NCBI GenBank assembly: GCA_947568835.1 | Contig: OX387604.1 | Span: 4,320,001 to 4,384,000, forward strand | Length of the DNA: 64,000 nt | Reading direction: 5' to 3' | Source of the DNA: Protonemura montana | Lineage: Eukaryota > Arthropoda > Insecta > Plecoptera > Nemouridae | In this document: piece by piece, positions 1 to 35,875 of the stretch | How positions within the stretch are numbered: position 1 is the stretch's first letter | How the letters are laid out: every line of letters begins with the position of its first letter | The notes under the pieces: model-generated | Databases searched by the model: none | What the model was told of the DNA's origin: nothing | What the model saw: the letters and a program-made list of their open reading frames with translations, nothing else | Program-made: the position numbers and the translations under genes

Positions 1-2890
1 TACTTCTGATAAATAAATATTTATTTGAGATTCCAAGAGCATTTGCAATCTAAATCTTCTTGTGAATTGTCATTAACCAATGAAGGCATCAAGATTGCAT
101 TTAATCTGGCATCAATTAAGTAAGCCACCAGTCATTCTTCATATTTGATCTGTCTATACCTATGCCTTCCTCCTGCTTCAAACTTTTTTTTTTTTTTTAA
201 TTTAATGTCAGCAATATGTCAGGTGGGGAGGCATACTTCATGCACAAGGTACTAATTAGTTAACCAATTGCCTGCACCCTTCATGTATAGTTAAAAAATT
301 TATTGCAGAATCCCAAAGATCACAAATTACCGCTGCATTATCATGAAAGATTGCATAACCATATCATAAAAATACCATATTGCTCTCATATTCATAAAAA
401 TTAAAATGTAGTTTTGATTCAAAGATTGTATGCAATTAAATTCTCTGTGGGTTGTCTTTTACCAGTGGAGCTGTGTGGATTGCATTTAATCTGGCATCAA
501 TAGATTGAGCATCCTGACATTGTTTGAACAGGAGCTGTCTATATATGCGTTCATTCTAATAAAAACATTACAATATTTTCTAATTCTTTATCAGCTTCAA
601 ATTCTAAACAAGGATAATTACATTTAAGCAGATTACATACCTTGCAATATTGTCAATATTGTGGTTGAGTGTTAAGGGCAAGAAAGGTCAACAGTAGCTG
701 TAATGATGTAAAACAGGTCCGTGCTGTTCCATCCAACATGCTGGGACAATGGGCAGATTTTTCTAAAATGCAAAAATGTTTCAGTTCTTGGTTTGGTTCC
801 ATATTAAATTTAACAGGGATGAAACAATCTTCAAAAAAAAGGAATTCAAACATTTAAAACTGCTTCTAGCCACCACAATCTTGTCCAGTTGAATATGCAA
901 CCAGAGATTGTAAACAATATCTAAGCCTCTAAAAAGCAGCACCTGCAGATGCATCTTTACCTGACAGCTATACTGGATGTTGTTAAACTGACACTGTAAA
1001 ATATCCTAAAGAATATCTTTTAAGGCATCTGCTACATTTCTGCAGCTTTAGAGCACGCTACAGTAAGATCTAAACAGAGTTGTGATCATGCGATTAATAA
1101 ATAACTAGATCTTCCGAGTACTCCTTATGTGTTATCTAACCAGGGCAGTCACTTAGATTGCATTATTTTTGGCATAATATGATTACGCAACCCAAAATTT
1201 TTCGAACGGGATCACACCGTATTTGCCGCTGTTCTGCATTAAGTTTTTTTTTTATCAAGGCTACATGTTATGCATGTACGCTCCAAGACAGTCCAGAAAA
1301 TGAACTGAATATTTAATCATGTATCAAAAAAAAACCATTAAGTATTATCAGGGTTCCACATACACAGCAGGCCTGTAGTGAAGCTCTAGAAGCAAGTTTG
1401 TGAAGTCACGTGGCCCCAATGTGTTGGTGAAACGAATCTGCATTATCGGTCCAGTAAGCCGGGAAACAGAACTGGTTTTCCTAAAAGCAAAAAAAGAACA
1501 GTCCTCAGTAAAAGTTTGCTAATAAACCTAACAGAAATGAAAAATCACGAAAGGATAAATATTTTAGACTTAAAACTGCTTGTTACCGACAAAGACTTTG
1601 TAAGCAAAATATATCCTTCAAAGATTTACCATCTTTGAAGGGAGGGAAATTGCAGATAATTTAGCATCAAATTGCTGGGCTGCCTGACATGGTAATGAGC
1701 AGGAGCTGTCAATCTGTGCCCTCTCTTGTAACAGGTACACACTTTTGTGCTTTACAGTTTTCTGCGATCATGTTAATAATTAAGAAAGATATTCCCATTA
1801 TTCACAACATGTCTGCAACAAATCTCTCCAGTAGGTTGTCTTGAACCAATGGAGCCCCTTGGATTGCAATTAATGTGGCAAAAAAAAATGTAACCCGCCA
1901 TTGTTTGAACAGGAGACAGTTTATATTTGCTCTCTTTCTGAAAACAGATCACCTCCACTTCCTTGTATGCAAAATGGAAACCTGATTATTATGGTATCTG
2001 AAGGAAAATCTTTTGCAATTTATTAGCCATCCGATTGTCATGCAGCCATCCATTGTTGTGAGCTGGAGCTTTAAATCACTATACACAGTTAACATTTCTG
2101 GTACTGCCTGGTAGGAGGACACAAATCAGTAAATTTGTTAGTTTTATCGCTACTATTCGTGGAAAACATCAGGTTAGGTATGTCACATAAGCTAAAAAAA
2201 AACACAAACACGGTAGCACACTGAAGCACAAACCAGATGAACCAGATGTTCAACCTGATGAACAAATGTTTTATTGATGGCAAAGTTTGTAAGCAATTTT
2301 TATACTTCATCGATGATATCGAACCAATGAAGCCGTTTAAATTGCAATTAATCTGGCATTAATTAATTAAGCAACCCAACATTGCTTGAAGAGTTGCTAT
2401 CTTTATCTGCCTTCATTGTGCTATGAATATGTATATTTTTAGATATGTGTAACCAGAGATTGAAATCAATATCTAAATAGCTTAAATGCACCAAAATTTC
2501 GAAATACGAAATATCCTGAAAATATCTTTTAAGACATCTGCTATGCTTCTGTTGCTTTAGAGCAAGCTGCAATGAGATTTAAAGAAAGGTGCGATCATGT
2601 TTAATAAATATTAAATACCTAGATTTCCAAGATGTGGAGGTATGTATGCAATTTTGATACTCTATTGGTGTTATCAAACCAATGAAGCTATAGAGGTTGC
2701 ATTTAATCTGGCATTATATGATTACGCAACATGAAATTGTTCAAGCGTGTTCACACCATATTTGCCGTAGTTCTGGTTTAAGCATTCTATCTTGTCTATT
2801 TTATCTTTGGTTTCTATCATGCATGTACGGACTGAGTCAGTTTATGCAATGTACCGAATATTTAATCAAATATCAAACAATTACCATTAA

Positions 2891-3038
2891 TGGTTGAGTG
2901 GTTTTTATCAGAGCCATGGTTTGATGTTATGATTTTTTTTTGGCTTTGCTCTGTGTTGAAGAGGTTTATGGCCCTATAAATGGCTGCTTTAACACAGAGC
3001 AAAACAACTAAAAAACATATCATAACAATTGCCATTAA
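2891..3038. mobile_element. Small foldback (MITE-like) insertion in array unit II
   Basis: Compared with the first array unit (around 1325-1345), this unit has an extra ~148 bp. It contains imperfect inverted arms (a GTTATGAT..TTTGCTCTGTGTT side and an AACACAGAGCAAA..ATCATAAC side). The segment ACAATTACCATTAA at 2877-2890 is repeated as ACAATTGCCATTAA at 3025-3038, which looks like a target duplication. It encodes no protein. Confidence 0.6.
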
Positions 3039-4577
3039 GTTTTATTAGGGTTCCACATACGTAGCTGGTTATAAGTGTAGCTCCAGAAGCAAGTTTGTGA
3101 AGTCCATGGGCTCCAATGTGTCGATGAAACAAATCTGCATTGCTGATCCAATAAGCTGGGAAACAGGACTGTTTCTCCTGAAATGCATACAAGGAAAAGT
3201 CCTCTTCATAAGTTACATATTAAACCTAGCTGAAATGAAAAAATCATGGAAGAAAAAATATTTTAGACTTAAAACTGCCTGTTACCGACAAAAACTTTGT
3301 ATGCTAAATAAATCCTTCAAAGATTTACCATCTTTAAAGGGAGGGAAATTGCAGATAATTTAGCATCAAATTGCTGGGCTGCCTGACATGGTAATAAGCA
3401 GGAGCTTTCAATCTGTGCTGCTGTAACAGGTACACCCTTATCTGCTTTACAGTTTTCTGCGATTTTGTTAATAATTACGAAAGATATTGCCATTATTCAC
3501 AACATGTCTGCAACAAATCTCTCCAGTAGGTTGTCTTTAACCAATCCAGGCCTTTGGATTGCAATTAATGTGGCAAAAAAAAATGTAACCTGCCATTGTT
3601 TGAACAGGAGACAGTTTATATTTGCTCTCTTTCTGAAAACTGCTCACCTCCACTTCCTTGTATGCAAAATGGAAACCTGATTATTATGGTATCTGAAGAA
3701 AAGTCTTTTGCAATTTATTAGCCATCCGATTGTCATGCAGCCATTCATTGTTGTGAGCTGGAGCTTTAAATCACTATACACAGTTAACATTTCTGGTACT
3801 GCCTGGTAGGAGGACACAAATCAGCAAATTTGTTAGTTTTATCGCTACTATTCGTGGAAAACATCAGGTTAGGTATGTCACATAAGCTTAAAAAAAACAC
3901 GAAACACTGTAGCACACTGTAGCACAAACCAGCGTAAGACTGATGAACAACTGTTTTATTGATGGCAAAGTTTGTAAGCAATTTTTATACTTCATCGATG
4001 ATATCGAACCAATGAAGCCGTTTAAATTGCAATTAATCTGGCATTAATTAATTAAGCAACCCAACATTGTTTGAAGAGTTGCTATCTTTATCTGCCTTCA
4101 TTGCGCTTTGAATATGTATATTTTTAGAAATGTGCATCCAGAGATTGCAATCAATCTCTAAATATCTAAAATCCACCGAAACATTTGAAATACGAAATAT
4201 CCTGAAAATATCTTTTAAGACATCTGCTGTGCTTTTGTTGCTTTAGAGCAAGCTACAATGAGATTTAAAGAAAGGTGCGATCATGTTTAATAAATATTAA
4301 ATACCTAGATTTCCAAGATGGGGAGGTATGTATGCAATTTTGATACTTTATTGGTGTTATCAAACCAATGAAGCTTTAGAGGTTGCATTTAATCTGGCAT
4401 TATATGATTACGCAACATGAAATAGTTCAAGTGTGTTTACACCATATTTGCCGTAGTTCTGGTTTACGCATTCTATTTTGTCTATTTTATCTTTGTTTTC
4501 TATCATGCATGTACGGACTGAGTCAGTTTATGCAATGTACCGAATATTTAATCAAATATCAAACAATTACCATTAAT

Positions 4578-4722
4578 GGTGAGCGGTATTTTTAAGGGCC
4601 AAGGTTTTGATGTTATGATATGTTTTTTTGCTTTGCACTATGTTGAAGAGGTTTGTGGCCCTAGAAAGGGCTGCTTAAACACAGAGCAAAACCTAAAAAC
4701 ATATAATAACAATTACCATTAA
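4578..4722. mobile_element. Same foldback insertion in array unit III
   Basis: This is the counterpart of the insertion at 2891-3038, in the equivalent position of the next 1.69-kb unit, with the same arms and flanking ACAATTACCATTAA repeats. Its presence in both units means it was duplicated together with the unit rather than inserted twice. Confidence 0.6.
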
Positions 4723-5627
4723 GTATTATGAGGGTTCCACATACGTAGCTGGTTATAAGTGGAGCTCCAGAAGTAAGTTTGTGAAGTCAAGTGGTCCCAA
4801 TGTGTCGATGAAACAAATCTGCATCGACGATCCAATAAGCTGGGCAACAAGACTGTTTCTCCTGAAATGCATAAAAGGAAAAGTCCTCGTTATAAGTTAC
4901 ATATTAAACCTAGCCGAAATGAAAAAATCATGGAAGAAAAAATATTTTAGACTTAAAACCGCCTGTTACCGACAAAAACTTTGTATGCTAAATAAATCCT
5001 TCAAAGATTTACCATCTTTGAAGGGAGGGAAATTGCAGATAATTTAGCATCAAATTGCTGGGCTGTCTGACATGGTAATGAGCAGGAGCTTTCAATCTGT
5101 GCTGTCTATTGTAACAGGTACACAATTATGTACTTTACAGTTTTCTGCGATCATGTTAATAATCAAGGAAGATATTCCCAGTATTACAACATGTCTGCAA
5201 CAAATCTCTCCAGCTGTTTGTCTTAAACCAATGGAGCCATTTGAATTGCAATTAATGTGACAAATAAAAAGCAAACTGCCATTGTTCAAATGGGAGACTG
5301 TCTTTTTTTGCCGTTATATTGCAAAAACATTACCTTTAATGCTTTGTATGCAAAATGCAAACCTTCTGATTCTTATGGTATCTGAAGGAAAGTGTTTGGC
5401 AATTTATTTGGCATCCGATTGTCATGCAGCCAGATATGGTTGTGAGCGGGAGCTTTAAATCAGTGCAGACAGATAACATATTACGTACTGCCTTTTAGGA
5501 GGACACATTACAACAAATTTGTTAGCTTTATCTCTACAACACGTGGTATACATCAGCTTGGATATGTCACATAAGCTTAAAAAACATAGAAGCACAAACC
5601 AGCATAAACCTGATGAACAAATAATTG

Positions 5628-6235
5628 TAAGCAATTTTGATACTTCATCGATGATATCAAACCAATGAAGCCGTTTAAATTGCAATTAATCTAGCATAAA
5701 TTAATTAAGCAACCCAACATTGTTTGAAGAGTTGCTATCTTTATCTGCCTTCATTGCGCTTTGAATAGATATATATTTTTAGAATTCAAGGTTAACTGTT
5801 AGGCTGGTGGGTAGGCACTTAAATTGTAAGCAATTTTGATACTTCATCAATGATATCAAACCAATGAAGCCGTTTTAATTGCAATTAATCTGGCATAAAT
5901 TAATTAAGCAACCTAAAATTGTTTGAAGAGTTGCTATCTTTATCTGCCTTCATTGCGCTTTGAATATAAATATATTTTTAGAATTCAATGTTAACTGTAA
6001 GGCTGGTGGGTAGGCACTAAAACAAATAATTGTAAGCAATTTTGATACTTCATCGATGATATCGAACCAATGAAGCCGTTTAAATTGCAGTTAATCTGGC
6101 ATAAATAAATTAAGTAACCCAACATTGTTTGAAGAGTTACTATCTTAATCTGCCTTCATTGCGCTTTGAATAAATATATATTTTTAGAATTCAATGATAA
6201 CTGTAAGGCTGGTGGGTAGCCACTAAAACTGTTCA
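5628..6235 (+). repeat. Three tandem ~200-bp copies of one array sub-unit
   Basis: Three consecutive, nearly identical blocks have cores at about 5681, 5881 and 6085. Each starts with ATTGTAAGCAATTTTGATAC and ends in a segment containing GGCTGGTGGGTAG. This is the most homogeneous and so probably youngest expansion in the array. Confidence 0.85.
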
Positions 6236-6499
6236 TAAGGTACAACTTAGTTAAATGAATTGTCAACAAAATTACAAAAAATGCAGCGTCCTACATACAT
6301 TGCATGAATATTGTTGGGTGGGTGCTAACAGAAGCTGGATTGGAAAAGGGATGTGGTTCAGAGGTTGTACGGATTTGCATCGGTATGAATGACTTGCGTC
6401 CTAAAAGGGACTAAAGCAATGCAGCAAGTGTCCTGGTGCCTGTTGTTGGGAGTGGGCTAATCAGAGCCCATGCTGGCCTATGGTTGGTCAACTCACGTT

Positions 6500-7035
6500 T
6501 TAGGAGCAGTTAACCCTTTGTTCTTTGGCTCGGGCGGCCGCCGGGCGGGTGCGAGTAGCAAGACTGTCCTTGCCGGAACTTCTGGTGCTGTGGCCGGTGT
6601 CCTGGTCACCACTCGGTCTCGGTATCCCGACTGATAGCTCCGTTTCCGTGCGAGCGCTGTTAGCAGAGCCAACCTTGGCGATCTTGGGGCTGGTGTCCTG
6701 GTCACTGCATAATCTCGGTATTTGGACTGAGGGCTCGGTCTCTGATTGTACGGAGTCAACCTCCGGCATCGACCCGAACCGAGTCGTGGTCGATCACTCC
6801 TCGGTAATCCTGGACATCCACACAAAGGCTGCTCTACCCAAAGTGTTCAACTTTGCAGTCAGCGTAACTCGTCTACCCTACGAGCGCATCATCTGCTGTG
6901 TAGAAGCAGCAGTCAGGACACTGCCCACTGCACTAGCCAAATAACTACGGCAGGACACAGCGGCTATCATTAGAAACGCTAAACCAACTACCAGCAACAT
7001 CACCCGTGCAGATCGGGCGGCCCTGAAATTGATCG
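6500..7035 (+). pseudogene. Penelope-like retroelement fragment (N-terminal part)
   Basis: This is a GC-rich island in the AT-rich array. The plus-strand frame at about 6835-7020 reads like the region preceding the reverse transcriptase of Penelope-like elements: a FNFAVSVTRLP segment, then CVEAAVRTLP, then AKPTTSNITRADRAAL after one stop codon. In that family this leads into the conserved ADKG block, but here similarity stops abruptly where array sequence resumes near 7035. The upstream 6590-6750 part contains a partial direct duplication (a CCTGGTCAC..CTCGGTAT segment twice). Family assignment rests on my recall of conserved blocks. A PLE relic is likely; the clade is unknown. Confidence 0.55.
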
Positions 7036-8599
7036 AAATATCGAAATATACGAAATATCTGAAAATATCTTTTAAGATATCTGCTTTGTTTTTGTTGCTT
7101 TAGAGTAAGCTACAATGGGATTTAAAGAAAGGTGCGATCATGCTATTAATAAGTTCCTAGATTTTCCAAGATGAGGAGGTATGTACGCAATTATAATACT
7201 CCATTGGTGTTATCAAACCAATGAAGCCGTTTAGATTGCATTTAATCTGGTATTATATGATTAGGCAACCCAAATTTGTTCAAACGGAATGCAGCGATAT
7301 TTGCCGTTCTGGTTTCAGCATTGTATTTTCTCCATTTCATCTAAGGTTTATGTCATGCATATATGTACCGAGTCAGTTCAGACAATGCACTGAATATTAA
7401 ATTCAATATCAAAAAATTATCAATAAGTATTATTTAAGTACCACATACGTAGGAAGCTTCTAGTGTAGCTCTAGAAGCATGTTTGTGAAGTCAAGTGGCT
7501 CCAATGTGTCGGTGAAACAAATCTGCATTGTCCATCCAGAAAGCTGGGAAACAGGACTGTTTCTCCTGTAATGTAAAAAGAAAAAGTCCTCTTTATAATT
7601 TACATATTAATCCCAACAGAAATGAAAAAATATGGAAGAAAAAATATTTTGGATTTAAAACTGCTTGTTATGGAAAAAGACTTTGTATGCAAAATAGATC
7701 CTTCTAAGATTTACCACCTTTGGGGGAAAGGAAATTTCAGATAATTTAGCATCAAATTGCTGGTCTAGTTGACATGGTTATGAGCAGGAGCTTTGCATTT
7801 ATGCCTTTTATTGTAACAGGTACACACTTATGTGCTTTACAGTTTTCTGCGATCATGTTAATAATTAAGGAAGTTATTCCCATTATTCACAACATGTCTG
7901 CAACAAATCTCTCCAACAGGTTATGTTTCAACAATGGAGCCCCTTGGATTGCAATTAATGTGGCAAATAAAAATGTAACTTGCTATAGTTTGAACGAGCA
8001 ACAGTTTATATTTGCTCTCATTCTGCAAACAGATCACCTCCAATACCTTGTATGCAAAATGGAAACCTCCTGATTCTTATGGTATCTGAAGGAAAGTCTT
8101 TTGCAATTTATTTGGCATCCGATTGTTATGCAGCCAGCTATGGTTGTGAACTGGAGCTTTAAATCAGTGCAGACAGATAACATATTACGTACTGCCTTGT
8201 AGGAGGATACAACAAATTTGTTAGCTTTATCTCTACAACACGTGGTATACATCAGCTTAGATATGTCACATAAGCTTAAAAAACATAGAAGCACAAACCA
8301 GCATAAACCGGATGAACAAATGTTTTATTGATGGCAAAGTTTGTCAGCAATTTTGATACTTCATCGATGATATCAAACCAATGAAGCCGTTTAAATTGCA
8401 ATTAATCTGGCATAAATGTATTAAGCAACCCAACATTGTTTGAAGAGTGGCTATCTTTATCTGCCTTCATTGCACTTTGAATATAGATATTTTTAGAATC
8501 CAATGTTAGCTGTATCGCTAGTGAGCAGGTACTAAAGCTGTTTATAAGGTACAACTTAGTTACCCGAATTGACAACAAGTATAATTAGTAATTACTAAT

Positions 8600-9400
8600 A
8601 CGCAGCGTACAACATACTTCGCTTGAATGTTGTCGAGTAGGTGGAGCCAACAGAAGCTGGGTTGGAATGGCGATGTGGTTCAGAGGTTGTACGGTGTTGC
8701 ATCGGTATGAATGACATGCAGGTTTTAAAGAGACTAAAGCGATGCAGCAAGTGTTTGCTGCTTTTATGCCCCAAAGTCAAATGCTATTTTCTGATCAGTT
8801 CAAATCGTGGAAGGGACAATTGGCCACTCAGAGCACAAGCCAGCCTGGATTGGGCCATGTAGGTGAAGCAAGACCCAACTGTTTTCTGGCTCAGATGGCT
8901 GCCGCATGGGTTTGTTTGCAAGATTGTCGTCGCAGGTGCTCGTGTTCTCAGAGCAGATGGATCTTCTTGGTGACTCCGAGTTTTTGCGCTTGTTCATGTT
9001 TAAGGCCGTCTCTTGATATCATTAGCCTCCCAGTTCGACTGTGTTGTGCAGTGAAAAATCATGGCCAGGGACTTCATGCCGTCAAAGTTGATCGAGTGCG
9101 CGGTCTGCTCGACGTGTTCCAGGTGACTGCTGCAGGCACTGTACCTTTAGAGACTGGTCACCGGGAAGATCCTGGTGGCCCCTACTGGTCCTTTTGAGTC
9201 CGAGTCTTCAGTCGAGATATTGAGACAGAGATTATCGGGATGCCGACACCAAGCCTTCACTCATGATGCACATGCACCTGTGCTTCGACCATCTGAGCCG
9301 GGGTACGGATAGGCAACAACGTCGCTTGACCTTAGTCAATAATCCAGACCGTCTAAGGCTCTGAGTCGGCCGTTGTCCCTCCCACTACACAAAAACATCC
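8600..9400 (-). pseudogene. Penelope-like retroelement fragment (C-terminal part, minus strand)
   Basis: This is a second GC-rich island inside the array. On the minus strand at about 9126-9010 the frame contains EHVEQTAHSINFDGMKSLA followed by a stretch ending IKRR. This resembles the histidine-containing block after the GIY-YIG endonuclease in Penelope-like elements, where H-x-I-x-F/W-D-x-V/M is conserved. The preceding reverse transcriptase and GIY-YIG parts were not recognised. Frames are broken by stops. It is opposite in orientation to the fragment at 6.5-7.0 kb, so the two are not one simple insertion. The plus-strand 151-codon frame over the same bases is probably a shadow. Confidence 0.5.
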
Positions 9401-10629
9401 CTTCTATCCAATGAAGCCGTTTAGATTGTATTTAATCTGGCATAAAATGATTAGGCAACCTGTCATGGTTTGAACAGGAGCCATCCATTTTGCCGTTATT
9501 CTGCTTTAAGCATAATAGTTTTCAGTTTTATGTCCGTTTTATCTCAGGCATTTAGGCACTTAGTCAATACCAACAATGTACTGAAAATGTAACCAAATAG
9601 CATATAAATTTACGTGTTAGCAGAGCACTACACACTTATCAAGCTTGTAGCGGAGCAATCGCAGCAAGTTTGTGGAGTGAAATGCAGCGGAGTGTCGATC
9701 CAATAAGCTGGGAAACGAGACCATTTTTCCTGAAATAAAAAATATTTGAGTTCTTCTTTTAAGTTCCATAAAAAACCTAACAGAGTTGAAAAGGTTTTGA
9801 AAGCATAGATATTTTCAACTAAAAACTGCTTGCTGGCTACACACAAAAATGTGGTATGCAAAAACAATCCTCCAATTTGATTTCCCACCTGTGTGGGAAA
9901 TCAAGTGGGAAAGCATCAAATTACTAGGCAGCCTTGTTACTCCGCTACAAAAAGAATTGTAGCACAAACCAGCATAAACTTGATGAACAAATGTTTTATT
10001 GATGGCAAAGTATGTATACAATTCTAATACTTCATCGATGATATCTAACCAATGAAGCCCTTTAAATTGCAATTAATCTGGCATAATTTTACTAAGCAAC
10101 CCGACATTGTTTGAAGGGGGCTGTATGTATTTGCCAAAGCTCTGCTACAAGCATAATATTTTTTTAATTTGTTGGTCAGCTTCTTGTTAGGTATTAAGGC
10201 GTCCAGACTGCTATGGCTGTTAAAGAATGTCCTTTAATCAGAGCAGTATATTGTCATTGGTACCAATTGTCGTGTTTGTCTTTAATTACAGTTGTGAGGG
10301 GTTTCGACCATGCTCCTAATTCAGAGCTGTGGTTGGATGTTGAAAGTGTTTACGGTTTTGATCCATTTTGCTTTGGATTTGGTACCAAGCCTTTGACCGC
10401 AAATCCACAAAGAATTAAACTGTTACCAGATAGGTAAACAAATGTATGCCCATAATCTAAGATTTGTTTGCAATTTAAATCTCCTTTGGGTTTTCTCTAA
10501 CCAATGGAGCCTAATGATTGCAATTAATCTAGCATAAAAATGGATAAGCATCCCGACATTGGTTGTACGAGTGCTGCCTAAATATGCCATCGTCCTGCCT
10601 ACACATTAGGCACACATTACGTCGAATAT

Positions 10630-10715
10630 TTTTCCAGTCAAGCCCTCCTCTCATCCTCCACATGCTGGTTTCAGCTCCCTAGTGGAATCACCAGAAAAAC
10701 CAAAAACCCTGCATG
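10630..10715 (+). repeat. Partial SINE (3' part)
   Basis: The segment includes CTGGTTTCAGCTCCCTAGTG followed by an A-rich ACCAGAAAAACC run, matching the 3' half of the tRNA-derived SINE at 11.09-11.30 kb. The tRNA-like head is absent. The same partial copy recurs near 13.55 and 17.48 kb because the host block was duplicated. Confidence 0.6.
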
Positions 10716-11084
10716 TACCTAAGATGTTAGTTGAGGAATACATCCAGGGCTTCCAAGAAACTTATGTTTAATAACAACCAGACATTCCTTTGATGGCAAG
10801 GTGTGTGTGAAATAATAATACTCCATGGGTAATAGTTAACCCTGGGAGCATTTTGGAATTCCATTTATCTGGCATAATATAATTTAGCTTCTCGTTATGA
10901 ATTGGACGAGAGCCGATCATATTTGCCCTCGTTGTGCAGTGTGCTGAAGGAAACTTTTCCCATTTCATGTCCTCCATGTTTTAGGTATGTAGGTTCCAAG
11001 AATGCGTAATCAATGTTCTAAATATTGAACCAAATGAGCAACAAGATAATTGGAAAAGAAGCTACGGCTGAAAAAATGTGCAAC

Positions 11085-11298
11085 CGAACCGGGCTACGAA
11101 CTCAGGACCTCCCAGGTAAGCTGGAATATATGTACCCAGATGGCTCAACTGGTAGAGCACCTGACTGGCAGTTGGGAGGTCCTGGGTTCGTTTCCTGGTT
11201 TGGTTGTACATATTTGCAGTCGTAGCTTCCTTTCCAACTTTTGCTTGCTGGTTTCAGCTCCCTAGTGGAAACACAAGAAAAATCAAACAACTCTGTAC
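11085..11298 (+). mobile_element. tRNA-derived SINE, full-length-like copy
   Basis: A tRNA-like head carries an A box (TGGCTCAACTGGTAGAGC) and a B box (GGGTTCGTTTCC), the internal RNA polymerase III promoter elements. The anticodon arm can pair CCTGA with TTGGG around a loop holding GGC, which suggests a tRNA-Ala ancestor. A body follows with CTGGTTTCAGCTCCCTAGTG and an A-rich end. The acceptor stem is not maintained, so it is a SINE and not a tRNA gene. It sits inside the satellite-like array. Confidence 0.75.
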
Positions 11299-13024
11299 CG
11301 AAATAATTACTTATTTGCAGCTTACGCTTGTGATTGAACGTTTGAGTGAGTTAGTAAAGTCAACATATGCATTCCTAGATCTTCCAAGATGGGGTGGTGT
11401 GTATTTAATTATTTAACTCCACAGGTGTTATAAAACCAATAAAGCCGTTTGGATTGCATTTTATCTGGCATATATTTATGAAATAACCAAACATTCTTTA
11501 GAGGAGAGCTGTTTTAAAATGCCTACATTGTGCTAAAAGTATTTTTTTTTTTAAATTCAATGTCAGCTTATCTCTGTTAGGTAGGCACTGAAACTGTACA
11601 TACAAGGCAAAACATACTAAATCAATTTCTCCAAGGAGTATATTTCCTAATATGCAGATTGCTACATACCTTGTAAGAATGCTGTCAAGCAAGTGGAGTC
11701 AACAGAAGCTTTGTTGGAATGGCGAAGCGGTTGAGAGTCGTGAGCTGCTGGTTATGAGTTGTATGGTTTTGCTACGGCTCTGAGTGGATGGTTGCCCTTC
11801 CCACTATTCGGATCGAATAGAAAACAGCCCTTTCATTTGCGGCATAAGAGCAGCAAACACTTGCTACGTCGACGCAGGCTTGAAGATGTCAGTACCAATG
11901 CCGACTAAATGTCAACTACGGTCCTTATACCGGGGCAAAACCGTAACACATAACCAGGAGCTGTGTTGATGTAAAACAAATCTGCGCTGTTCATCCAGAA
12001 TGCTGGGACAATGGACCAATTTTACTGAAATGCAAAAATGTTGGAGTTAATGGATTGTTTCTGTATAAAACAGAACAGAGATAAAAAGAGCTTAAAGAAT
12101 AGAGATTTAAAATTGATGACTGCTTGTAACTGAAACAGAATTTGCATTCAAAATACAAGCCCCCAAAATGGTTTCTTTATCTGATGTGGGGAAAGAATTT
12201 CAGATAATTTACAACATTGTGTAAGCATCAATATACTCCAAATAGGTTGTCTTCAATCAATGGAGTGCTTTTGAATGCAATTATTCTGGCATAAAATTAG
12301 ATTAGCTGCCCGACATTGAACGAACGAGAGCTTTCTATATTTGCCATCATTCTGCAAACACATCACCTTGTATACCTTGTATGCAAAATGGAAACCTCTG
12401 GATTCTTATAGTACCCAAAGATAGTGTTTTGCAATTTATTTGGCATCAGATTGTTATGCAGCCAGCCATGGTTGTGAGCTGGAGCTTTAAATCAGTGCAG
12501 ACAGTTGACATTATAGGTACTGCCTTGTAGGACACCAATCGACATATTTGTTAATTTTGTCTCCACAACACGATAAATACATCAGCTTTGGTATATTAAG
12601 TAAGGTTACGGAGCATTGTAGGTAGAACCAGCATAAACCTGATGAACAAAAGCTGTATTGGTGGCAAAGTGTGTATACAATTCCAATACTTCATCGATGA
12701 TATCAAACCAATGAAGCCCTTTAAATTGCAATTAATCTGGCATAGTTTTACTCAGCAACCTGACATTGTTTGAAGGGGGCTGTATATATATATATGCCAT
12801 AATTCTGCTATAAGCATAATATTTTTAAATTTCATATCAGCTTCATCAGCGCCCAAAAATCCACAAAGAATAAAACCGTACCACATTAAGTAAACAAATG
12901 TGTGCCCATAATTGAAGATGTGTTTGCAATTTTAATCTCCTTTGAGTTGTCTTTGACCAATGGAGCCTAATGATTGCAATTAGTCTAGCATAAAAATAGA
13001 TAAGCATCCCGACATTGCTTGTAC

Positions 13025-13443
13025 CGTTGAGTGTAGGTTATAGGTAGAGAAACAATGTCAATGTTACAGTCTCTGCGTGAAGATGACCGTTAAATGACTA
13101 CCTTACCGACAAAAATGCAGAGTACCGGAACATCACGTTAAGTGGAGCCACTGTCGTCTGAATTTTAATTTGGATATTTCTCGTAGGTTAACTCGCTTTT
13201 GAGACTTTTCATGCTCAAAAAATCTCTATCAATGTTTACCTCAACGATAGATAGACATAACAATATTAAAAAGCGAGTAACCTACGATAAATATCGAAAT
13301 TAAATTATATACGACAGTGGCTCCACTTAACGTGACGTTCCGGTACTCTGCGTTTTTGTCGGTAAGGTAGTCATTTAGGGGTCATCTTCACGCAGAGACT
13401 TGAACATTGACGTTGTTTCTCTACCTATAACCTACACTCAACG
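13025..13443. mobile_element. Foldback/MITE element with long terminal inverted repeats (copy 1)
   Basis: The element begins CGTTGAGTGTAGGTTATAGG and ends with its reverse complement. The arms pair over roughly 170 bases each with few mismatches, leaving a short centre. It encodes no protein. Flanks are CTTGTAC (13018-13024) and GTTGTAC (13444-13450), a 7-bp target duplication with one difference. The corresponding array position at 10562-10568 reads GTTGTAC with no insertion, so that paralogous unit is an empty site. Confidence 0.85.
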
Positions 13444-14296
13444 GTTGTACGAGTGCTGCCTATATATGCAATCGTCCTGTCTACACATTAGGCACACATT
13501 AGGTTGAATATTTTTCCAGTCAAGCCCCCCTCTAATCCTCCACATGCTGGTTTCAGCTCCCTAGTGGAATCACCAGAAAAACCAAAAACCCTGCATGTAC
13601 CTAAGATGTTAGTTGAGGAATACATCCAGGGCTTCCAAGAAACTTATGTTTAATAACAACCAGACATTCCTTTGATGGCAAGGTGTGTGTGAAATTATGA
13701 TACTCCATGGGTCATAGTTAACCTTAGGAGCTTTTTGGAATTCCATTTATCTGGCATAATATAATTTAGCATCTCGTTATTAATTGGACGAGAGCCAGCA
13801 ACCAAATATTCTTTGAAAGGGAGCCGTTTTAATATGCCTTCATTGCGCTAAAAATGTATATTTTTTTAAATTCAATCCTAGCTATAAATCTGTTTGGTAT
13901 GCACCAAAACTGTATATATCAGGCAAAACATATTAAACTAAATCTCCAACATGCATAATTACTAATATGCAGAGTACTACGTACCATACCACAAAGTACT
14001 TACATACATAGAGTATAGAATGTTGTCGACGAATGCTGTTACTATTTTTCCTATTTTAAAGGAAAAGAAAAGTGTTTTTAGGTCAGCTTTATCTGCTACC
14101 TTATTATGGGGTTTCGTTATTTCCCATCAAGGTAGTCGATCGACTATACTCTATGCAAGTCGTTATAATAACACGAACGGGAAATTAGTTAATTACCAAC
14201 GTAGATTTTTTAGTTAAGCAGGAAAGAGTTTGAAGGCCAAAAAAGCAAGCCTGGTATCACGAGAAAAATGCAGGTTTGCTGCCATCGTGACCTCCA

Positions 14297-14321
14297 CCCC
14301 CCCCCCCCCCCCCCCCCCCCC
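14297..14321 (+). repeat. Poly-C tract (25 C)
   Basis: An uninterrupted run of cytosines within an otherwise AT-rich region. Its neighbourhood (about 14.03-14.30 kb) lacks the array modules and may be a separate insertion; nothing else was recognised there. The exact length may be affected by sequencing. Confidence 0.9.
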
Positions 14322-16950
14322 TCCCGACTGCATTAGTTATCACATTTTTTGCAGACTCTAAAAGGAAAAAGATCACGAGCCACCACTGCATTATCATAAA
14401 AGAGTGCATGATCTGATACAATCATACTCCTTAAATTTAAGATGTAGTTGTGATTTATAGATTATTTGCAATTAAAATCTCCGTGGGTTGTCTTTTACCA
14501 ATGGAGCTGTGTGGATTGCATTTAATCTCGCATCAATAGATTGAGCATCCTGACATTGTTTGAACAAGAGCTGTCTATATATGCCTTCATTCTAATAAAA
14601 ACATTATATATTATTTAATTCTTTGTTAGCTTTCATAACACTCTGTATAAAAAGTACAATATATTTAATCAAATCCTTAATAGCTATTACATATCAGCAG
14701 AGTACTACATACCTTGCAATATTATGGTTGAGTGTTACATGCAAGAAAGTTAAGTCAACAGTAGCTGTGTTTATGTAAAACAGGTCCATGCTGTCCATCC
14801 AACATGCCGAGACTTTTCCTGAAATCCAAAAATGTTGGAGTTCTTGGTTTAGATCCATATTACATGAAACAGGCATAAAAAAATCTTGAAGAAATATAAA
14901 TTCTAAATCTGAAACTGCTTCTAGCCATCACAATCTTTGTCTAGTTGAAATTACAACTGGACGTTGAGATTAATATCTAAGTATTGAAAGCAGCCACTGC
15001 AGAAATGAGTCTTTACCTGGCAGCTATCCTAAAAAATGGTTAAACTTGCAGTACAAAATATCCTGAAAAATAAATTTTGAATGCATTTGCAATGTTTCTG
15101 CAAGCTACTATAGAGCAAGCTACTATAAGATTTAAACAAAGGTGCGATCTTGTCATTAATAAATACCGAGATCTTCCAAGATGGGGAGGTGTGCATGCAA
15201 TTATGAGACTTCATAGGTGTTATCTAACAAATAAAGCTATTTAGATTGCATTTAATCTAGTATATGATTAAGACCCCAAAATTGTTCAAAAGAGATCCAG
15301 CCATACATGCTGTCATTCTGACTTAAGCATCTTATTTTCTCCACTTTCTCTAGTCCATATGTTATGCATGTATGCTCCGAGTCAGTCCAGACAATGTACT
15401 GAATATTTAATCATGTATGAAACAAATATCATTAAGTATTATCATGGTTCTACTTACGTACCTGGTTTGTAGAGAAGCTCTAGAAGCAAGTTTGTGAAGT
15501 CAAGTGGCCCCAATGTGTCGGTGAAACAAATCTGCATTGTCGATCCAATAAGGTGGGTTACAGAACTGGTTTTCCTGAAATGCAAAAAAGGGGAATGTCA
15601 TCGTTAAAAGTAACATATTAAACCCAACAGAAATAAAAAATGATGGAAGAAAAAATAATTTAAGACTTAAAACTGCTTGTTACCAACAAAGACTTTGTAT
15701 GCAAATTAAATCCTCCAAAGATTTACCATCTTTGAAGGGAGGGAAATTGCAGATAATTTAGCATCAAATTGCTGGGCTGCCTGACATGGTAATGAGCAGG
15801 AGCTTTCAATCTGTGCCCTCTATTGTAAAAAGTACACACTTTTGTGCTTTACAGTGTTCGGCTATCATGCAATTAATTAAGAAAGAAATTTCCATTATTC
15901 ACAAAGTGTCTGCAACTTAACTCTCCTGTGGGCTGCCTTCAACCAATAGTACCCTTTGGATTGCAAGTAATTTAGCAAAAAATAAAATAAGTAACTTGCC
16001 ATTTTTCAAACGGGGTACAGTCTCTATTTGCCGTCATACTGCAAGCACATCACCTCCAATGCTTTGTATGCAAAATGGAAATCTCCTGATTCTTATGGTA
16101 TCTGAAAGAAAGTTTTTTGCAATTTATTTGGCATCTGATTATCTTGCAGCCAACCATGTTTGTGAGAAGAAGCTTTAAATCAGGAAACACAGTTGACATT
16201 TCTGGTACGACATTTTTTTTGTTTTATCTCCACAATACGATAAATACATCAGTTTATGTATATTACATACGATAACATAGCATCGTAGCTGGAACCAGCA
16301 TAATCCTGATGAACAAAAGCTGAATTGATGGCAAAGTTTGTATGCAATTCCAATACTTCATCGATGCTATCGAACCAATGAAGCCATTTAAATTGCAATT
16401 AATCTGGCATAATTTTACTGAGCAACCCGACATTGTTTGAAGGGGGCTGTATATATCTATGCCATAATTCTACTATAAGCATAATATTTTTAAATTTGAT
16501 ATCAGCTTCTTGTCAGGTAGGTACCCAGGCTCCCAGACTGTTATGGCTGTTGAAGGATGTCCTTTGAATCAGTGCTTTCTATTGTCAAAGCTACCAATTT
16601 TTGTGTTCAGAAGTGCTTTATGAACACTGTTATAATGGGTTGCAATCATGCTCCTAATACATATAAGTACATATGATAAGACATAGTGATTCAGAGCTAT
16701 GGTTGGATGTTGAAAGTGTTTACGGTTTTGTTCCGTATTGCTCTGGTTTCGGTGTTTAAAAAAGCTTCAAGGCTGCCCCCACAAATCCACAAAGAATAAA
16801 ACCGTACCACATTAAGTAAACAAAGGTATGCCCATAATTCAAGATGTGTTTGCAATTTTAATCTCCTTTGAGTTGTCTTTAACCAATGGAGCCTAATGAT
16901 TGCAATTAGTCTAGCATAAAAATAGATAAGCATCCCGACATTGGTTGTAC

Positions 16951-17371
16951 CGTTGAGTGTAGGTTATAGGTAGAGAAACAACGTCAATATTACAGTCTCT
17001 GCCTGAAGATGACCGTTAAATGACTACCTTACCGACAAAAATGCAGAGTACCGGAACATCACGTTAAGTGGAGCCACTGTCGTCTGAATTTTAATTTCGA
17101 AATTTCTCGTAGGTTAACTCACTTTTGAGACTTTTCATGCTCAAAAAATCTCTATCAATGTTTACCTCAACAATAGATATAGACATAACGATATTAAAAA
17201 GCGAGTAACCTACGATAAATATCTAAATTAAATTTAACAAGACAGTGGCTCCACTTAACGTGACGTTCTCGTACTCTGCATTTTTGTCGGTAAGGTAGTC
17301 ATTTAAAGGTCATCTTCACGCAGAGACTGTAACATTGACGTTTTTTCTCTACCTATAAACTACACTCAACG
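16951..17371. mobile_element. Foldback/MITE element (copy 2)
   Basis: This is nearly identical in structure to the element at 13025-13443 and lies in the same array context. A perfect 7-bp target duplication GTTGTAC sits at 16944-16950 and 17372-17378. Because the flanks for hundreds of bases on both sides also match the 12.6-13.9 kb block, this copy most likely arose by duplication of the host block. The transposase family is not identifiable from the ends alone. Confidence 0.85.
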
Positions 17372-18249
17372 GTTGTACGAGTGCTGCCTAAATATGCCAT
17401 CGTCCTGCCCACACATTAGGCACACATTACGTCGAATATTTTTCCAGTCAAGCCCCCCTCTCATCCTCTACATGCTGGTTTCAGCTCCCTAGTGGAATCA
17501 CTGAAAAACCAAAAACCCTGTATGTACCTAAGATGTTAGTTGAGGAATACATCCATTCTTTCCATTTCTACATATCATTCTTGGAGGGCTTCCAAGAAAC
17601 TTATGTTTAATAACAACCAGACATTCCTTTGATGGCAAGGTGTGTGTGAAATTATGATACTTCATGGGTAATAGTAAACCTTAGGAGCATTTAGGAATTC
17701 CATTTATCTGGCATAATATAATTTAGCTTCTCGTTATTAATTGGACGAGAGCCGATCATATTTGCCCTCGTTGTGCTTAGAGGAGCTTTTTTTCTATGAC
17801 ATGTCCTTCATGTGTCAGGTACGTAGGTACCAAGTTTGTGTAGTCAACGTTCTATATATTAAACTTAATGTTTAACAAGATACTTACTTATTTGCAGTTA
17901 AAGCTTGTAAAGGAATGTTTGAAGAGAGTTGGTGAAGTCGACACATTCCATTTTGAAGTGATTGGCGTTATCCACTGAATTAGCTAGGAAACAGGAATTA
18001 TTTTTATGTTAGGGCGAGCTATTAGGAGAAGGTTTAGTGATATCTGAGTTACGATCCTTATACATATAGATATGCTCATGATTTGAGTTGTGGATGCAAC
18101 GGTAATCTCTATTAGGTTACTTGGATTGGAATTAATAGGGCATAAAATTAAACAAGCAACCTGACATTGTAAACATATCCAAGAAATGATTTTGGTAGAT
18201 ATGTCGATTTAAGATTGTTGGCAATTGTTTTGCTAAAATCCCGGGTTAC

Positions 18250-33925: not shown

Positions 33926-34253
33926 CTACTGTTGTAGCTTCATACCCTTAGCAAGGAGCTCTGGGAGCGAGTAGTTGACTAGTTGGCATACGTTAGCGCA
34001 CCATGCGTGTTGGACAACGCCTCCGATGCAAATGCGCTGTTCTGCGCTCGGATGAAGCATTTCTCCAAGCAGCGCTCTCAGCTGGTCAGGATCGGGTTTT
34101 GGATCGGGATTGGCTTCAGGATCACGACAGGGATCCGGGAAACGTAGGCCGACACGAACCGTGCTGGCCACGTCCGGGAAAGGGAAATGGCCAAAAGATA
34201 TGGTGAAGAGGACAACCCCTAATGACCACACCTGTAATTCCGGCCCAGCATAT
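33926..34253 (-). CDS. PASK: Terminal exon of a PAS-domain kinase-like Ser/Thr kinase (partial gene)
   Basis: After a pyrimidine-rich acceptor (TTTTTCCACAG, ending at 34254) the frame reads YAGPELQVWSLGVVLFTI. This is protein-kinase subdomain IX, in which PASK has a near-identical GPELEMWSLGVTLYT. It continues through the C-lobe (LLGEMLHPSAEQRI, then the HAW box) and into CQLVNYSLPELL, which matches the characteristic post-kinase NLADYTWEE segment of PASK. An acidic, proline-rich insertion with repeated DP pairs sits before the last helices. The frame ends at a TAG at 33926-33928; a GGTATGAAG just before it could instead be a donor site. In PASK this lobe completes the catalytic domain of an energy-sensing kinase. 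No upstream exon with the HRD or DFG motifs was found in the 7 kb before WDR35. Confidence 0.65.
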
Positions 34254-34389
34254 CTGTGGAAAAATGCTAACGCTAGGGAATGTAAAGTAAAAAATTGTCT
34301 GTTCTCCAGATGATCGAACATGCATATAAATACTTCAAAGAAATATTTTTTTACTATTTGATCCTGATTCACAGCTGCAAGATCAGAGA

Positions 34390-35633: not shown

Positions 35634-35875
35634 GTCTCCAGACCGAACGGTTTGGCATAATGGAAACACCGGTTCTCGTTGGATCACCGAAGTTAAGCAA
35701 CACTGCGCTGTGTCTGGTATTGGATGGGTGACCATCATACACATGACCAGGTCTGTTGGGGAGAGAGGTTAGAAGGATGATAGCTAGCACAGCAACTTCA
35801 TTTGCCTTGCTTATCAACCTCTCGACAGCATGGATTTATTTATTTATTTATTTGACTAGCTGACAGGTACATATA
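35634..35875 (+). mobile_element. 5S-rRNA-derived SINE (SINE3 type)
   Basis: The first ~120 bp are 5S ribosomal RNA sequence: ACACCGGTTCTCGTTGGATC, then ACCGAAGTTAAGCAAC, then TTGGATGGGTGACC, which includes the internal A and C boxes of the 5S promoter. It then runs into a non-ribosomal body (GGGGAGAGAGGTTAGAAGGA, then GACAGCATGG) and ends in an ATTT microsatellite. A real 5S gene would not continue this way, and its terminator and 3' stem are not intact. The same body is found near 29.94 kb. Confidence 0.85.

Follow-up and report, generated by a model that had tools for sequence, protein, structure and literature searches.

The first 18 kb of a 64,000-nucleotide (nt) window from the plecopteran Protonemura montana (contig C16, 4.32-4.384 Mb, in a genome of 258.5 Mb and 34 contigs) is filled by an array of short repeated modules. 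This array very probably represents a single noncoding host gene on the minus strand that carries about 42 paralogous box H/ACA small nucleolar RNAs (snoRNAs), at least some of them within introns. The sequence and structure of the modules, their boxes and pocket spacing, the likely strand, a set of exon-like elements, and the order of duplicated blocks are all directly observable in the array. Box H/ACA snoRNAs are characterized by a pair of pocketed hairpins, the sequence ANANNA (the H box) at the hinge between them, and ACA at the tail; an internal pocket lies about 14 to 16 nt above each box. An earlier, sequence-only reading of this DNA had described the array on the plus strand; the array stands as described, but the strand of the gene is likely minus.

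The core of the module was delimited with an iterated nhmmer profile (132 model columns, E ≤ 0.01) that was searched against the window and the 30 kb upstream. There were 45 matches on the plus strand, spanning positions 44 to 18170, and the sole minus-strand match was weak (E 0.0094) and lay inside the array. No core match was found by this profile in the 30 kb upstream or in the window from 18.2 to 64 kb. The array starts at about position 33, just within the window, and the gaps between adjacent modules range from 11 to 1006 nt when measured from the model boundaries. The sequence-only reading had proposed at least 32 copies of a core of about 110 bp, all in one orientation, variably spaced and ending sharply near 18.15 kb. 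The recurrence, the single orientation, the wide spacing, and the sharp end (the last core ends at 18170) were all borne out; the copy number was too low, and the length too short for a unit of about 132 to 145 nt.

In its minus-strand reading, the core is very likely a box H/ACA snoRNA rather than a satellite monomer. The hinge is AGATTA or a variant of it, and the tail is ACA. Boxes were counted in 41 modules, namely, the 42 strong covariance model (CM) matches minus a decayed module at 1089; a weak match at 18084 was also excluded. ANANNA is present at the hinge in 39 of these modules and ACA at the tail in 37, and both occur in 35. From base composition, the expected chance fit is about 3% (H) and 2% (ACA) per site, a figure to be read with the relatedness of the copies in mind, as they are not independent. 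The ACA exceptions are ATG (module at 33), a truncation (9385), ATA (14456), and GCA (15185). A 3′ pocket is present in the fold of 30 modules, and in 25 of these the upper stem is separated from ACA by 13 to 14 nt. The 5′ hairpin is less regular: the distance from the upper stem to the H box is 15 to 16 nt in 12 of the 25 with a 5′ pocket, and for this hairpin the script favored loops 10 to 20 nt from the box.

Consensus folding of 18 representative modules with RNAalifold yielded two hairpins, each composed of a lower stem, an internal loop, and an upper stem. The energy z score was −7.2 on the minus strand and −6.7 on the plus strand; in 500 column shuffles that preserved conservation, neither value was reached. 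Pairing was then counted in 36 modules on the minus strand; the alignment that was counted had also supplied the structure, and the shuffles ignore relatedness. Paired cells made up 84.2%, compared with 80.1% in shuffles of the 3′ letters (0/500 reached the observed value), and the proportion dropped to 31 to 46% when the partners were slid by 1 to 3 columns. Cells with a double change numbered 47, compared with a shuffle mean of 23.4 (0/500), and the covariation score of 0.231 was also beyond every shuffle (0/500). These are three of the five pair measures that we applied. A structure-free column screen of the plus strand placed its best stems at compatible positions, a result that is not decisive alone.

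The fold is significant on the plus strand too, as a reverse complement would give, and conserved islands on that strand resemble transcription factor sites by eye. The array might accordingly be imagined as a series of plus-strand structured RNAs or DNA elements with CCAAT-, octamer-, and SOX-like motifs. However, read in reverse complement, the islands largely coincide with the H box, the ACA box, and the lower stems. Single-sequence stability is also higher on the minus strand, with a mean z score across 38 modules of −2.1 (standard deviation [SD], 1.8) versus −1.1 (SD, 1.1) on the plus strand, some values being positive. Moreover, G-U cells (78) exceed A-C cells (49) in the minus orientation, and splice-like sites lie on the minus strand, the strand that was scanned in this way. 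We regard a plus-strand array as extremely improbable. A three-hairpin RNA, a microRNA cluster, a CCAAT/octamer/SOX enhancer array, and spliced-leader or hsr-omega-like repeats, all on the plus strand, were dropped as candidates once H and ACA boxes were recognized on the opposite strand.

Average-linkage clustering grouped 36 modules into 12, 9, or 5 classes at distances of 0.25, 0.30, and 0.35, respectively, and pairwise identity among them has a median of 57% (range, 36 to 98%). We refer to the classes by the letters A to I, which were assigned by eye and position. The class order B-C-D-E-A recurs at 2636-4110, 4322-5763, 7175-8479, and 15185-16477, from which it follows that the array grew by block duplication. 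The recurring blocks are about 1.7 kb and larger, in agreement with the earlier proposal that units longer than the core were exchanged or duplicated. The same reading had suggested that the core is preserved relative to the spacers, and this too was upheld: of 14 alignments made between duplicated blocks, some of which overlap, 10 show clearly greater identity in the core than in the spacer, 2 show no difference, and 2 show the opposite, and both of these last two involve a rearranged stretch at 13.4 to 13.8 kb.

Identity was also compared by region in 33 of the 36 modules, which fall into 8 classes (three single modules were excluded). Between classes, identity is 94% in ACA, 82% in the H box, and 78 to 80% in the lower stems, compared with about 40% in the flanks; the guide pockets, at 38 to 48%, resemble the flanks. 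Within classes, the values are 98% for ACA, 97% for the H box, 96% for the 3′ lower stem, 84 to 88% for the pockets, and 76 to 78% for the flanks. Divergence among paralogues is greatest in the guide pockets, the 3′ hairpin loop, and the flanks and least in the boxes and lower stems. The earlier suggestion that the preserved core could be a transcribed unit is supported.

The spacers of the array contain nine conserved copies of an element that we call X, which has the appearance of an exon on the minus strand. All nine copies have an acceptor AG after a T-rich stretch, and eight have a donor, GTATGT in six, GTAAGT in one, and GTGTGT in one; the ninth copy lacks the donor side. Five candidate exons are exactly 117 nt long (1364-1480, 3061-3177, 4745-4861, 7449-7565, and 15458-15574, the last with the donor GTAAGT), and in these the distance from the preceding class C snoRNA to the X acceptor, measured from the model boundary, is 112 to 115 nt. 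The other candidates with both sites lie at 641-762 (bounded by TTTTAG and GTATGTA), 9636-9729 (donor GTGTGT), and 14713-14818. The copy with an intact acceptor and no donor side lies at 11925-12024, where the low end is the limit of the stretch examined. No reading frame is open in all nine copies: the third is open in five, the second in two, and none in the remaining two, and the first frame is also open in two of the five copies with an open third frame. Splice-like signals in the E-A, C-D, and A-B spacers were inconsistent across copies, and we do not claim exons there.

Whole-genome DNA searches placed the modules in this array only. All matches to the class A query (14), the B/X/C query (7), and the D/E query (6) fell within it. 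The G/H query gave 48 matches, with the best 40 of 662 candidates scored, and these comprised the array and a dispersed repeat that was reached via the spacer part only. No module copy outside the array was found by these four queries, which cover classes A to E, G, and H, in searches that score the best candidates only and can miss distant copies. The dispersed repeat corresponds to the spacer segment at 10628-10713 and occurs at dozens of genomic places with 81 to 100% identity.

The sequence-only reading had interpreted the array as an old satellite or a mobile element derivative. In the functionless form of that account, a long-monomer satellite or mobile-element-derived array was rearranged by unequal exchange, which would fit the block duplications, the rearranged or truncated modules, the inverted-repeat insertions within two modules, and the 4 of 14 block alignments in which the core is not above the spacer. 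It is contradicted by the H and ACA boxes at both predicted places in 35 of 41 modules, by the H/ACA-type hairpins and pocket spacing of the minus-strand core, by a consensus fold that 500 shuffles failed to match and an excess of double-change cells, by the repeated exon-like element with splice sites in the spacers, and by the finding of no copies elsewhere in the genome with queries that hold classes A to E, G, and H. Equal divergence of core and spacer combined with genome-wide dispersal in both orientations, the pattern named earlier as the alternative to a preserved core, is not what we observed. We consider a satellite or mobile element origin of this kind highly unlikely and interpret the array as a snoRNA locus.

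A CM built from the 36 modules and searched against the window and the 30 kb upstream gave 43 minus-strand matches at E ≤ 0.01, all within 33-18211 and 7 of them outside the training set. No match at this threshold occurred elsewhere in the window or in the 30 kb upstream. Up to an E value of 1, there were two further weak minus-strand matches (902 and 62568) and five weak plus-strand matches on modules (best E, 0.013). In Rfam, one class A module that was scanned singly had four subthreshold matches, none significant, of which the three with the lowest E values, PsiU2-38.40.42 (0.3), PsiU1-6 (0.66), and snoR83 (1.3), are snoRNA or small Cajal body-specific RNA (scaRNA) models that align along their entire length on the minus strand; the fourth is U6atac (2.8). 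snoR83 carries the HACA label in Rfam, and we take PsiU2-38.40.42 and PsiU1-6 to be H/ACA as well. One C-D-E stretch also had four matches, none significant: two, TtnuHACA19 (E 0.48) and ceN51 (E 4.6), are minus-strand matches to H/ACA models, and two are bacterial small RNAs (one with E 0.45). A match to SNORA58 (22.5 bits, E 2) was set aside as out of register with the module boundaries. The microRNA precursor matches of lowest E value in Rfam, MIR4371, MIR6457, and MIR7504, were likewise rejected; they are below their gathering scores and lie on inverted-repeat elements, not on modules.

Several observations weigh against a functional snoRNA host gene or reduce the force of the evidence for it. 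Beyond the shared origin of alignment and structure and the neglect of relatedness in the pair counts, two of the pair measures showed no excess: 11 pairs have a double change, compared with 9.6 in shuffles (152/500), and 33 further pair types were counted, compared with 32.2 (218/500). Two class E copies (1957 and 3652) have TAATAA in place of the H box, and among the 41 modules the fold shows no pocket in 11 of the 3′ hairpins and in 16 of the 5′ hairpins. The training set itself supplied 36 of the 43 CM matches, and no Rfam snoRNA family reached its gathering score for the array. The X splice sites were first picked out visually in aligned, related copies before a script assigned their positions, exons are proposed for this one spacer element only, and classes C, D, and E are spaced 11 to 68 nt apart with no clear exon between them. 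Such spacing implies that several snoRNAs share an intron or that the exons are very small. Within classes, the pockets are not above the upper stems (84 and 89%), and their conservation therefore gives no proof of selection on guides.

The scan for guide targets weighs on the same side. We compared 76 pockets with a truncated 18S copy from contig C14, over 1,143 nt, and with one U2 copy, and in these sequences no convincing target was found beyond chance. The two best 18S pairings, both from class A copies with identical pockets, were equaled or bettered by 0 of 60 shuffles, with about one such pairing expected by chance, and the best U2 pairing was equaled or bettered by 4 of 200; none of these was used. 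The incomplete 18S rRNA copy lies at about 672.8 to 674.1 kb of C14 (L029:6790-8142) and is the single match of an exact conserved 18S pattern, and two exact 28S patterns had no match in the genome. The lone partial 18S copy and the lack of a 28S match suggest that nuclear ribosomal DNA may be missing from or masked in the assembly.

The absence of a target in the 18S fragment and the one U2 copy, the irregular 5′ hairpins, and the decayed modules at 1089, 9385, 9854, 12914, 13679, 16840, and 18084 would also fit a largely dead cluster, that is, a formerly functional array of pseudogenes kept by duplication alone. This possibility has the H/ACA identity in common with an active host gene, and so the probabilities of the two overlap. 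It is opposed by the retention of both boxes in 35 of 41 modules, by the within-class peaks of identity in ACA, the H box, and the 3′ lower stem relative to the flanks, and by the splice-like sites retained in eight of nine exon copies. Overall, we consider a largely dead cluster improbable.

If the array is an active host gene, its minus-strand transcript would extend from near 18.2 kb to near position 1 and contain, in tandem, about 42 related members of a single box H/ACA family, at least partly within introns. Splicing would take place at the X exons, and the introns would be debranched and then trimmed. Dyskerin/Nop60B, Nhp2, Nop10, and Gar1 would shield each two-hairpin RNA, and the resulting ribonucleoprotein (RNP) particles would presumably direct pseudouridylation via their pockets. 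Transcription, splicing, processing, RNP assembly, and activity of the array snoRNAs are thus predicted steps of this model. The locus would have expanded by block duplication of exon and snoRNAs together, giving rise to about nine classes in a repeating order; the pockets would then have drifted apart from class to class, with the boxes and lower stems retained and some copies decaying.

The array has features of several known systems. Like the box H/ACA snoRNAs and scaRNAs represented by Drosophila PsiU2-38.40.42 (RF02667), its modules have two pocketed hairpins, an ANANNA hinge, and an ACA tail in about 130 to 145 nt. The class A module that was scanned aligns with the whole of RF02667 on the minus strand, but its score of 18.1 bits (E 0.3) falls short of the gathering score, 88, and it is not a member of that family. 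H/ACA snoRNA genes are reportedly clustered in Drosophila introns, to go by the title of Huang et al. 2004 (J Mol Biol 341:669), and in having several clustered H/ACA genes the present locus is similar. The Drosophila noncoding U-snoRNA host genes (Uhg) have as many as 16 introns, each with a single snoRNA, and together hold 48 snoRNAs (PMC4430873). In contrast, the array holds about 42 paralogues of one H/ACA family at a single locus, and the spacing of the C-D-E neighbors makes it probable that, unlike Uhg, it does not have one snoRNA per intron. SNORD116 in SNHG14 is described as a tandem array of at least 28 highly similar box C/D snoRNAs in a long noncoding host (PMC5748676). The P. montana array shares with it the tandem arrangement of a repeated unit and differs in being box H/ACA, whereas SNORD116 is mammalian, imprinted, and box C/D. 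Drosophila mfl has small tandem clusters, including four isoforms of one box C/D snoRNA, and follows a one-gene-per-intron rule (PMC1821038), and in vertebrates, tandem duplication inside a host gene is described as one of two main sources of new snoRNA paralogues (PMC2653536).

No H/ACA array of this size was found in a limited literature search, mostly of titles and abstract openings. Because the array resembles known clusters and has most of the H/ACA features tested, we count it among the known kind, as a very large member. The locus is likely an unusually large example of known H/ACA snoRNA clusters, from which it differs in size and in the tight C-D-E spacing. An apparent satellite is thereby recast as a likely gene of 18 kb with about 42 modules, 35 of which have both boxes. 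To indicate the scale, these roughly 42 at one locus compare with the 48 snoRNAs across the Drosophila Uhg genes (PMC4430873). Rfam scans failed to flag this family. With pockets that vary most and boxes and lower stems that vary least, the array offers a natural series for the birth, possible retargeting, and death of guide RNAs, copy by copy. We raise, tentatively and with some doubt, the possibility of an arthropod H/ACA counterpart of SNORD115/116, in which a lineage-specific expansion to about forty copies had its pockets respecified class by class, which would supply the animal with new or regulatory pseudouridylation guides that are orphan with respect to rRNA and perhaps tissue or sex specific.

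The module coordinates given here are mostly those of the CM matches, and all are on the minus strand. Candidate class A snoRNAs lie at 2281-2425, 3966-4110 (the top model score, 146.7 bits), 5619-5763, 5818-5962, 6024-6168, and 8335-8479, and those of class A2 lie at 10006-10149, 12665-12812, and 16332-16477. Class B is represented at 2636-2780, 4322-4466, 7175-7319, and 15185-15325 (the module with GCA), and a module that is B-like by position, with a decayed 3′ half, lies at 1089-1241 (52.7 bits). Class C comprises 1592-1734, 3291-3433, 4975-5117, 15689-15831, and a module with intact boxes and a poor fold at 7677-7819; a remnant at 9854-9934, C-like by eye, was detected by the sequence profile only. 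Class D comprises 1803-1945, 5185-5326, 7888-8030, a module with a poorly folded 3′ hairpin (3498-3640), and one with intact boxes and a poor fold (15900-16046), and a D-like candidate by position that forms a separate cluster at 0.30 lies at 12213-12359. Class E includes the two modules with TAATAA (1957-2097 and 3652-3792), candidates at 5338-5481, 8042-8185, and 12371-12513, and a module with a poorly folded 5′ hairpin (16058-16201).

Of the smaller classes, F is found at 420-563 and 14456-14599 (ATA for ACA), H at 10797-10941 and 17636-17780, and I at 11393-11537, where the fold is weak. A chimeric module of class H and part of class I lies at 13679-13852 (profile and CM). Three modules have no class letter: 33-180, with ATG at the ACA position (68 bits); 9385-9508, which has a truncated 3′ end and lacks ACA; and the decayed module at the array end, 18084-18211 (E 0.0076). 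Class G has an uninterrupted candidate at 10458-10602 and two modules, 12914-13053 and 16840-16979, in which the 5′ hairpin is interrupted by an inverted-repeat element resembling a miniature inverted-repeat transposable element. The two copies of this element, at 13023-13445 and 16949-17373, have arms of 168 nt, and their insertion at the same place in both class G copies suggests that insertion predates block duplication. Another inverted repeat, at 11050-11237 with 65-nt arms, overlaps a tRNA-like sequence at 11134-11206 (Rfam tRNA, 42 bits) and is perhaps a tRNA-derived repeat.

Outside the array, sequences resembling 5S rRNA flank it on opposite strands about 60 kb apart, at window positions 35642-35762 (plus) and at L008:3935-4049 (minus). 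A partial protein kinase domain lies at 33926-34372 of the window on the minus strand (Pfam Pkinase, 29.9 bits; cutoff, 31.7). Elsewhere in the assembly, COX1-like stretches occur outside the mitochondrial contig, at C4:5760925-5762262, C4:5776811-5777755, and C12:1429388-1429777, and one such stretch scores equal to the mitochondrial contig, C34; these stretches are either mitochondrial insertions or the product of an assembly join. The content and order of the mitochondrial genes, the order being the ancestral insect one, and TGA codons read through in COX1 indicate a pancrustacean, probably an insect. The mitochondrial contig has an extra tRNA-Leu-like call (aag) at C34:3397-3472, between cox1 and the usual tRNA-Leu.

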